Below, in pieces: positions 42,401 through 45,536 of a DNA stretch of 64,000 bases. Origin of the DNA: an uncultured Mucilaginibacter sp. (GTDB lineage Bacteria; Bacteroidota; Bacteroidia; Sphingobacteriales; Sphingobacteriaceae); the NCBI RefSeq assembly GCF_903893715.1, contig NZ_CAITNG010000112.1:62001-126000 (forward strand), read 5' to 3'. The position numbers and the translations under genes are program-made. The notes beneath the pieces were generated by a model. It was not told where the DNA came from. It saw only the letters and a program-made list of their open reading frames with translations, and searched no databases. Each line of letters starts with the position of its first letter. Position 1 is the stretch's first letter.

Positions 42401-45352
42401 CTATTTACTGCTTCCGCTTAACAGGCCGTCCAATGTAACAGAGGCATAGTACAGGCCGCCAATAGTTGGGCCGCCGGCATACTGTATGTAGCGGTTGTTG
42501 AATATATCAGATGCGCCCACTTTAAAGCTGGCTTTATAGGCCGGTACTTTCAGGGTAACCTGTGCATCAAAGGTGCTCACCGCAGGTACGTTGCCTGTGA
42601 TGACCAACTGGCTTTGCCATACGTAGGCTTGCTGCCATTTGTACACAATATTAAAGCCCAGGTTTTTTACCACCTCGCGATTGCCGAAGGACAGGTTGGT
42701 TGTCCATTGCGGGGTATTAAAACCGGTGATGAAGATATTGTCGGCATTTTGACCTACCATTTTGTTAAAGCTCGCATTTCCTGATACGGTATATTTTTTA
42801 TAGAAATTATAGGTCAGCCCCGCCGATGAACCATAAGCGTTGTAAACATTCTTAGCGTTGGTATACACGCGGTAGCGACTTTGGCCTAAACTGGCCGAGT
42901 TGGTGGAGGTGGCCGTTGTAGGATCGCGATTGGCGTCGAGCATGGCTTCCACAGCCGCATCGGTACCCACGGTGGTACCATTGGGTACATACACCTGTAT
43001 CTGGCCTAAAAATCCGTTATATTGGTTGGTATAGGCATCCACATCTAAAAACACCTTGTTATCAACCAATACGCCTTTGTAGCCTATTTCGTAAGAGGTG
43101 ATCTGCTCGGGCCTTGCGGGCGGCAGGTTGGCTACCTGTAGCAAGTTGCGGTTGGCCAACGCGGCGGCATCGGTACTGCCCTGGGCTGCTGCGGCGGCGT
43201 TAAACGTGGCTACCGAGGCTTGTGTATAGCTGTTCTCGAGATAGCCAAGGCCTTCGTCGATAAAAGGCAGGCTACCTACCCGTTTTACACGACCGTTGTT
43301 TACGTAAGACAGCGCTTCGAACAGCGACGGGAAGCGGTAACCCAACTGGTAGGTAAACCGGAAGTTATTGTTTTCGTTCGGCGAATAAACGGCGGCCAAA
43401 CGCGGGGTGAATTTAGGATCGAAATAAGGGTTGTAATCCCAACGGAGCGAGCCAAATAGTTTTAGCTTATCATCGAAAACGGTTTTGGTGATCTGGGCAA
43501 ACGAACCAAATTTTTTATAGTAAACATCGGCACCAAAACTACCATCGGGTAATGCTGTATTTCTATCGGCGATAGATCGGCTAAAGTCGACAAAGTTGTT
43601 GCCGTCGGGGATGATCTGGTAAACGCGCACATCGCCGCCCACCAACAGGTCGAATATTTTTACCTTATCGCTCAAATCCCACTGGGCCTCGCCGTTATAC
43701 ATGCGGCTTTGCTGGATGAGCGCAGCACCACCGGTAACTGGCGCAGTTGGTATCAAACTCGATTTGATGTCCCAGTTGTTGATACCTATAATGGTGCTTC
43801 GCAACTGGTTAAAGGCATCGGTACCGGGCAATACACGGCCGGCATCGGCGGCGGCGCGGGCAAAATCGGTAGCGGCGGCAAAGTTTGCCGAAGTTAACGA
43901 CCCACCATTGTTATTGGCAAAGGTGGTGAGCGCACTTTTATAAGTTGCAGCCCATGCGGTATTACTGGCATGGTTAAGGTCGAGGTTATCGGCCAGTGGT
44001 TTTACATTGAACGAGTTACCTGTATTTTCGAGGGATACATATCCCCGTACTAAAAAGTTCTTACCTTTCAGTTCAATCTTATGGTTTTGCACGGTGGCAC
44101 CATTCAGCTCTATTTTATTGCCGCGCTGAAAAACACCGTCCATCAAACCAAAACGGTAACCGTAGGATAGTTCGGTGGTTTTGCCGAGTTTATAGGCAAG
44201 CGTTGCATCCAATTTTACGTTGGAAACTTTGGGATCAACCAAATCGACTTCGTTATAGCCGGTACGCGCCACGGTGAGCGGCGCCCTTGCCACCCCATTG
44301 ATCACGATGCCTTTAATGGTTACAGTATTACTCCCCGAAAGGGCATCGTCGCCATATTTGTTCCAGCCATCGTAGGCCGCGTTATCGTTGTTGAGTTCGG
44401 GATAGAGCGGGTTGGCTGTTTTTAAGTTATTGGGGTTTTGATCCTGCTGCGTATTTGAGCGCCAATCAACCCCCTGCAAATAGCTGGCATTGATCTTGAA
44501 CGCGAATTTGTTGTTAAAGGCTTTGGCATACCGGATGGCGGTTTCGGTGAGGCCGCTTGGCGGTTCGTCGATACCGTCGGTATGGTTAATGCCTACGCGC
44601 TGGTAAAAACTTAATCCCTGGTAAGTAAACGGACTTTTGGTCGTTAAGTTAGCTAAACCACTAATGGCGTTGGTGCCGTAAAGCGCCGCTGCGGCACCGG
44701 GTGTGATCTCGATGCTTTGTATATCCAGTTCGGTGGGGCCAATGGCATTACCGAGCGGTACACCAAGCGTTGCCGATTGCATATCTATACCATCCACCAG
44801 CTGCATAAACCTGAAGTTGTTGGGGCTGTTAAAGCCTCGTGTGTTAGGTACCTGCAAGGTTAAACTCGAAGTGGTCATTTGCACGCCTTTAACATTGCCC
44901 AGGGCTTCGTAAAAGGTTGGTGCTGGCGATTCCTTGAGTGCCCTGATATCGAGCTTATCGATAGCCACCGGCGACTTCAGGAGTTTTTCTTCCCTGCGTG
45001 AAGCGGTAACCACCACCTCGTTTATGAGTAGGGATTGCGTGGTGAGCTGTACCGCCAGTTTGCTGTTGGCGTTTTTAATGAGGAACTCCTGCGGCGAATA
45101 CCCTATTTCGTTAAAAACCAAAGTGAACGGAAATTTAGCGTTGGTAGTAATGGAAAAGTGCCCTTGCTGGTCGGTTGAGGTACCATTGGTTGTGCCTTTT
45201 ATGGTAACGGTGGCGCCGGGCAGGGGTTGGCCTTTATCGTCGTTAACCTGGCCGCTCAACAGGTACGAACCGTTGAGCTGCGCATAACTCAATGCCGGTA
45301 AAAGGGCAAAGAAAAGTATTGCGGTTTTAAAAATCTTTGTAGAAATGGTCAT
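42401..45352 (-). CDS. TonB-dependent outer-membrane receptor
   Basis: The 983-residue receptor takes up an unknown ligand using proton-motive force via TonB. It has a signal peptide (LLPALSYAQ), a CarboxypepD_reg-like domain (about 30-110, SGQVNDDKGQPLPGATVTIK), a plug (about 115-235, VVVTASRREEKLLKSPVAID) and a long barrel ending in an aromatic-containing strand. No SusD partner or transporter is adjacent. A promoter, a polycysteine leader ORF and about 60 nt more precede the ATG, so expression may respond to cysteine or sulfur supply. Confidence 0.95.
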   Translation of the reverse strand: MTISTKIFKTAILFFALLPALSYAQLNGSYLLSGQVNDDKGQPLPGATVTIKGTTNGTSTDQQGHFSITTNAKFPFTLVFNEIGYSPQEFLIKNANSKLAVQLTTQSLLINEVVVTASRREEKLLKSPVAIDKLDIRALKESPAPTFYEALGNVKGVQMTTSSLTLQVPNTRGFNSPNNFRFMQLVDGIDMQSATLGVPLGNAIGPTELDIQSIEITPGAAAALYGTNAISGLANLTTKSPFTYQGLSFYQRVGINHTDGIDEPPSGLTETAIRYAKAFNNKFAFKINASYLQGVDWRSNTQQDQNPNNLKTANPLYPELNNDNAAYDGWNKYGDDALSGSNTVTIKGIVINGVARAPLTVARTGYNEVDLVDPKVSNVKLDATLAYKLGKTTELSYGYRFGLMDGVFQRGNKIELNGATVQNHKIELKGKNFLVRGYVSLENTGNSFNVKPLADNLDLNHASNTAWAATYKSALTTFANNNGGSLTSANFAAATDFARAAADAGRVLPGTDAFNQLRSTIIGINNWDIKSSLIPTAPVTGGAALIQQSRMYNGEAQWDLSDKVKIFDLLVGGDVRVYQIIPDGNNFVDFSRSIADRNTALPDGSFGADVYYKKFGSFAQITKTVFDDKLKLFGSLRWDYNPYFDPKFTPRLAAVYSPNENNNFRFTYQLGYRFPSLFEALSYVNNGRVKRVGSLPFIDEGLGYLENSYTQASVATFNAAAAAQGSTDAAALANRNLLQVANLPPARPEQITSYEIGYKGVLVDNKVFLDVDAYTNQYNGFLGQIQVYVPNGTTVGTDAAVEAMLDANRDPTTATSTNSASLGQSRYRVYTNAKNVYNAYGSSAGLTYNFYKKYTVSGNASFNKMVGQNADNIFITGFNTPQWTTNLSFGNREVVKNLGFNIVYKWQQAYVWQSQLVITGNVPAVSTFDAQVTLKVPAYKASFKVGASDIFNNRYIQYAGGPTIGGLYYASVTLDGLLSGSSK

Positions 45353-45412
45353 GGATTAAATTTAGATTGTAGATAAAAAATGCTGATGAATTAATTTGTG
45401 AAGGGTGTTGTA

Positions 45413-45460
45413 TCAGCAACAACAGCAGGCAGTTGGGGACTGCATTTTGCACATGGACAT
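45413..45460 (-). CDS. Polycysteine leader peptide ORF
   Basis: Fifteen codons read MSMCKMQSPTACCCC and stop (TGA at 45415-45413). Five of 15 residues are Cys, the last four in a row directly before the stop. It lies between a consensus promoter (45506-45536) and the receptor start (45352), about 40 nt inside the predicted transcript. A small hairpin (TGTTGT/ACAACA) overlaps the Cys codons. The layout is that of an attenuator leader peptide. Confidence 0.7.
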   Translation of the reverse strand: MSMCKMQSPTACCCC

Positions 45461-45505
45461 CGAAGTAAAAATATAATTGTACATAAATTCTATAGAATTA
45501 GTCGA

Positions 45506-45536
45506 CAAATATAATACGAGAATATATTTCTGCAAA
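45506..45536 (-). promoter_or_regulatory. Bacteroidota-type promoter of the TonB receptor unit
   Basis: On the minus strand, TTTG (45536-45533), a 19-nt spacer and TATATTTG (45513-45506) match the consensus fully. The start should be near 45499, giving a leader of about 145 nt that contains the polycysteine ORF. Confidence 0.85.

Follow-up and report, generated by a model that had tools for sequence, protein, structure and literature searches.

A conserved leader ORF with terminal cysteine codons upstream of a TonB-dependent receptor in Mucilaginibacter: a candidate cysteine-responsive attenuator

The minus strand of a 64,000-nucleotide stretch of an uncultured Mucilaginibacter genome (contig NZ_CAITNG010000112.1; the whole stretch is hereafter the window) encodes a TonB-dependent receptor of 983 amino acids (42401..45352), and between this gene and its predicted promoter lies a short open reading frame that ends in four consecutive cysteine codons. 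This arrangement raises the question of what such an ORF does at this position. The reading we favour, at a probability of roughly 0.78, is that it acts as a cysteine-responsive leader-peptide attenuator, which would switch the receptor on when Cys-tRNA is short, with Rho most likely providing the off-step. The underlying idea, a leader ORF that responds to cysteine, had been advanced from the letters of the window only (the sequence-only reading), and it is supported by the comparative sequence analysis described here, with charged tRNA-Cys as the proposed signal.

The promoter consists of a -33 element, TTTG (45533..45536), set 19 nt from a -7 element, TATATTTG (45506..45513), which is kept as TA..TTTG in orthologs; TTTG-19-TATATTTG is of the Bacteroidota type. 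Reading of the minus strand confirmed that four Cys codons, TGC TGT TGT TGC (45416..45427), follow this promoter and abut a TGA stop (45413-45415), and that the receptor ATG, at 45352, stands 60 nt past the leader stop, both as originally described. The proposed start of the ORF, on the other hand, has had to be revised. In the leader frame, an ATG at 45484 gives MYNYIFTSMSMCKMQSPTACCCC before the stop, and one at 45460 gives MSMCKMQSPTACCCC; the sequence-only reading had chosen the latter, and with it a 15-codon ORF about 40 nt into the transcript. Since orthologous leaders keep the upstream start, mostly beginning MYY, MYH, MYR or MYK (also MYN) and so matching the ATG at 45484, the leader is likely to comprise 23 codons (45413..45484), with a start and Cys tail that are both kept in orthologs. 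The ORF would therefore begin about 17 nt into the predicted transcript, and the positions of the promoter elements thus predict a short 5' UTR as opposed to a leaderless transcript.

Comparison of the regions upstream of orthologous receptors, a check proposed together with the original observation, recovered the short Cys-run ORF throughout Mucilaginibacter and also in Solitalea and Hufsiella. In all 15 same-genus receptor orthologs (72-100% identity) the leader closes with between two and four Cys codons. A search of named genomes added 38 loci, which belong to Mucilaginibacter, Solitalea, Hufsiella and a single related Sphingobacteriales MAG, and every one of them has a leader with a terminal Cys-codon run at a distance of 48-81 nt from the receptor. 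The runs range from CC, the minimum of just two codons seen in some receptor orthologs, to CCCCCC, with a final Arg in some. When these loci are combined with the window (39 loci), Cys is found at codon -2 in 39/39, at codon -1 in 36 and at codon -3 in 33; the Cys codons are all TGT or TGC, differing only in a T/C third base, while the preceding codons diverge freely. Variation within the run is only synonymous, and the pattern suggests that selection acts on the amino acid, or on the use of tRNA-Cys, rather than on a DNA word. A Desertivirga receptor locus (L231) and the distant receptor paralogs (L019-L030, L032 and L033) are without the leader, two Sphingobacteriales loci (L228, L236) have CC only and internal to the ORF, and the terminal poly-Cys run is mostly absent from Chitinophagaceae receptor loci. 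Separately, CGATGTTG occurs in 12 of 40 regions examined among L199-L244 (mostly Chitinophagaceae receptor loci), some 50-200 nt 5' of the receptor, against an expectation of 0.004 per region. It is in frame in all 12 occurrences, encoding Arg-Cys(-Cys) close to the stop of a short ATG-initiated ORF, and these ORFs may form another class of Cys leader, in which an Arg CGA codon stands ahead of the Cys codons.

The sequence-only reading had judged the Cys run very unlikely to arise by chance, which agrees both with these ortholog counts and with the rarity of similar ORFs elsewhere: across 80 named loci, a CCC-ended ORF lies within 200 nt upstream of 5 of 848 other genes. Four of these are cysH (PAPS/APS reductase) genes and the fifth is the receptor of locus L201, which was counted among the "other" genes after escaping the coordinate filter, leaving none at the remaining 843 genes. 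With the search patterns applied to the window's genome, and the frame read for each match, the leader under study was the single in-frame ATG...(Cys)4-stop ORF recovered, and intergenic ORFs with a Cys-rich end occurred essentially only directly 5' of the receptor in 44 scanned loci, nearly all of which are receptor loci. Other TGY-run matches (L107, L153, L154, L053) and class-level search matches (L311, L320, L324, L327) were discarded as lying inside or antisense to genes. A short intergenic ORF, MITSICGSLCC, was also seen at L181:4386-4421 and L185:4099-4134, with no obvious sulfur gene downstream.

Gene neighbourhoods associate the receptor with sulfur. Its Pfam domains are carboxypeptidase-regulatory-like, plug and beta barrel, and its matches among solved structures are to generic SusC/TonB receptors only; uptake of a sulfur source is predicted from the location of orthologs near cysHDN/cysI/cysG clusters. 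At least two of cysN, cysD, cysH, cysI, cobA and cysG lie within about 9 kb of the receptor in 49 of 80 relatives. The gene order in Solitalea is Rrf2 - cysG/TauE - cobA - sulfite reductase - receptor - Cys/Met PLP enzyme - cysN - cysD - cysH, and in several Mucilaginibacter the receptor flanks these same genes. The window itself has no cys genes beside the receptor, whose neighbours are proA/proB, and the sulfur role of this copy is thus assigned by orthology. A guess in the sequence-only reading, that a sulfur compound is involved, is borne out by synteny with sulfate assimilation and by the poly-Cys leaders that precede metY, cysH and cysS as well as operons with sulfatases.

The metY-metX-hom operon is preceded by a poly-Cys leader in 25 of the 29 loci examined. 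The leader of metY-metX in the window's own genome (L245, C135) ends ...MQMCCCCICC, most metY leaders are about 32-42 codons long, and examples also come from two further families within the class (L246, L247). A SAM-I riboswitch was detected in 19 of 20 metY loci scanned, and also at L110 and L113, such that at metY loci, including L245, riboswitch, poly-Cys leader and metY-metX-hom follow one another and place two sulfur sensors in series. Inspection by eye of L275-L287 showed a recurrent stem, ACACG...CGTG, immediately 3' of the stop codon of the metY leader and, in the interval up to metY, another small hairpin whose sequence varies (GGATA..TATCC or ACCGG..CCGGT); these hairpins were not captured by alifold on an automatic alignment. 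Leaders stand 30-54 nt upstream of cysH at four loci of the Chitinophagaceae group, and those of the cysteinyl-tRNA synthetase gene cysS, MIVFNTYCCCCCC and MNAPRLLFCCCC, each ending at a stop, were found in two genomes of one other family; cysH and cysS of Mucilaginibacter have no poly-Cys leader. The placement of such a leader before cysS argues for tRNA-Cys charging as the sensed signal. Poly-Cys leaders also precede a PhyH-type dioxygenase (G022, G090, G159) and SusCD pairs. Among loci L106 and L109, one such leader stands ahead of a gene set in which SusC/SusD are accompanied by an FGE-type sulfatase-modifying factor and a sulfatase-like protein, and another ahead of a PIG-L deacetylase with weak similarity to BshB2.

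The region also carries a candidate site for a transcriptional regulator. An imperfect palindrome of the GTCTACTAATTCTATAGAC type, here GTCGACTAATTCTATAGAA (45488..45506, minus strand), overlies the predicted transcription start. The 19-mer is present in 29 of the 39 receptor leaders, in most of them 20 nt ahead of the leader start codon, with similar boxes upstream of sulfite reductase, Rrf2, SusC and PhyH genes. An Rrf2 gene heads the cys cluster; CymR is the best named equivalog of its product, at 81 bits against a cut-off of 195 bits, and because this score is far under the cut-off the identification as CymR was rejected. The palindrome is a candidate Rrf2-family operator that probably adds a separate transcriptional control, and the question arises whether it alone controls the receptor, the leader ORF being a translation aid or a passenger. 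Strong conservation of the palindrome, its recurrence before sulfur genes and the position of the regulator gene would all fit such an arrangement; however, it leaves unexplained both the Cys run and its recurrence before metY, downstream of the SAM riboswitch, and before cysS, and several loci keep the leader with no canonical box detected, for which reasons we consider sole control by the operator unlikely. Palindromes of the AGTCTACTAAATTAGTAGACTA type, often in two to three copies, were seen before receptor and sulfur genes (upstream regions of L199-L244; L155, L156, L109 and L111) and are a probable Rrf2-family sulfur operator. A related box, TTAGTCTGCTAATTCTATAGAG, was noted on two contigs of the window's genome (L035 and L036, on C60 and C92), within near-duplicate regions that precede the gene of a short protein that looks secreted.

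How might a cysteine signal reach the receptor gene? The spacer between leader and receptor (45353..45412, minus strand) is G-poor and C-rich, as are its homologs: the 39 receptor spacers average 5.7% G and 26.5% C versus 13.3% G and 18.7% C in 244 control upstream regions, a difference whose significance the p-values overstate, related sequences having been treated as independent. This composition has the appearance of a Rho entry (rut-like) region, and with rho encoded in the genome, the two features expected of a Rho attenuator, such a stretch after the leader stop and the factor itself, are both found, which suggests Rho-dependent attenuation. The same composition could alternatively reflect unstructured RNA that favours translation initiation. 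No terminator-like site lies between leader and receptor, and alifold on the leader/spacer sets returned no conserved fold in the receptor set and a trivial one in the metY set. The hairpin (TGTTGT/ACAACA) that the sequence-only reading had described over the Cys codons is present, yet the fold is no better than that of shuffled sequences (z -0.37) and corresponds to no conserved fixed structure. A possible alternative pairing joins ATCAGCA (45381..45387, minus strand), which is followed by six T, to TGCTGAT (45412-45418), comprising the last Cys codon, the stop and a T; it is weak, with no conserved fixed helix. Pairing between Cys run and spacer gave a mean z of -1.17 over the 39 receptor loci and about 0 in the metY set, and a permutation test found no Watson-Crick excess, the observed value being reached in 3 of 200 only with G-U pairs allowed; given its absence from the metY set and a weak, species-specific covariation, this pairing was demoted to a weak hint.

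From these features we infer leader translation, stalling, a direction of control and a Rho step, which would combine as follows. RNA polymerase would initiate just 5' of the leader and a ribosome would begin the 23 codons. With Cys-tRNA scarce, the ribosome would stall at the Cys codons by the stop, occupying the leader end and covering the start of the C-rich spacer, and the receptor would be expressed; with Cys-tRNA ample, it would complete the leader and leave, baring the spacer, most likely to Rho, which would halt transcription ahead of the receptor. The net effect would be that falling cysteine raises sulfur uptake. Relief of Rho attenuation by Cys-tRNA shortage is favoured because of the spacer composition, the presence of rho, ribosome cover of the kind seen in tnaC, and the precedent of a Bordetella uORF before a TonB receptor. 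We place the Rho step itself at about even odds and cysteine sensing much higher. The tnaC leader of E. coli is a Rho-dependent attenuator that senses free tryptophan via its nascent chain; as there, a ribosome held at the leader end would mask the adjoining Rho entry site, whereas for the leader under study the proposed signal is tRNA-Cys charging. Stalling in cysteine shortage might instead reduce receptor expression, since a stalled upstream-ORF ribosome can, by inference, also cut downstream expression, but induction is favoured by the mycobacterial precedent and by metabolic logic, under which a shortage would be expected to raise metY, cysH and cysS, making this opposite sign quite unlikely.

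That precedent is the closest known system. A 2005 study predicted terminator-free Cys-run leader peptides in Actinobacteria and proposed polypyrimidine Rho sites for them (PMC1262725), and mycobacterial polycysteine leaders were tested by Canestrari 2020, according to the passages citing that work in PMC13236596 and PMC9094748. In both groups, as here, a short ORF with a Cys run close to its stop is found upstream of sulfur or cysteine genes (for the window copy, by orthology) with no conserved terminator hairpin. The present leader differs in phylum, probably in a short 5' UTR, as predicted from the promoter elements, in place of a leaderless transcript, in its outer-membrane TonB receptor target, and in the accompanying candidate Rrf2-type operator, SAM riboswitch at metY and G-depleted receptor spacer. 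The Rhodobacterales uORFC-8-2, a two-Cys cysS leader (PMC8632094), likewise has tandem Cys codons in a uORF and shares its cysS target with two Bacteroidota genomes, but it contains two stems and an intrinsic terminator, neither of which is conserved here; the hairpin plus U-tract of intrinsic-terminator attenuators (trp type, uORFC-8-2) was not found between leader and receptor.

A further precedent, Bordetella CruR/bfrG, is a copper-responsive, Cys-containing uORF that immediately precedes a TonB receptor gene and in which ribosome arrest opposes Rho-dependent termination (PMC9426467), and it invites the reading that the leader cysteines sense metal (copper, zinc) or redox state, like CruR/CutF, and control a metal-uptake receptor. 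CruR, however, belongs to the DUF2946 proteins and carries a CXXC and a C-terminal RAPP motif, none of which is found in the 23-codon peptide with its C-terminal Cys codons and sulfur-linked receptor. Its cysteines, being the last residues, would still be in the exit tunnel at termination, no export signal is apparent, and the gene associations are with sulfur metabolism and cysteinyl-tRNA synthetase rather than with copper; on this geometry and gene context metal sensing was rejected as very unlikely. The chance that the Cys run is an untranslated accident or a TG-rich DNA/RNA motif is negligible: TGY-run short ORFs do also occur out of frame within coding DNA, but here the frame, the place of the stop and the cysteines themselves persist amid diverging flanking codons, third bases are only T or C, and the association is specific to sulfur genes.

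Within Bacteroidota, a flavobacterial transcriptome study (PMC9723704) mentions attenuation by leader peptides ahead of operons for amino-acid biosynthesis; its main text contains no cysteine example. Our search of the main texts of open-licence papers found no Bacteroidota cysteine leader, in accord with the sequence-only reading, which knew of no described case. The leader thus appears to work like a polycysteine attenuator, in a phylum and with a class of target that are both new for this kind of element, and is undescribed in Bacteroidota as far as could be searched. More tentatively, and at somewhat below even odds, it may belong to a Bacteroidota-wide cysteine-starvation regulon in which tRNA-Cys charging, poly-Cys leaders and Rho attenuation directly gate TonB receptor and SusCD sulfur scavenging, together with an Rrf2-type repressor and the SAM riboswitch tandem at metY.

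If the proposed mechanism is true, cysteine-codon attenuation would extend to Bacteroidota, and nutrient uptake at the outer membrane would come under the control of tRNA charging. A simple sequence signature would furthermore assign sulfur acquisition to TonB/SusC receptors that otherwise lack a function, and homocysteine synthesis would have a dual control point, combining SAM riboswitch and Cys leader, that is testable in cultivable Mucilaginibacter.
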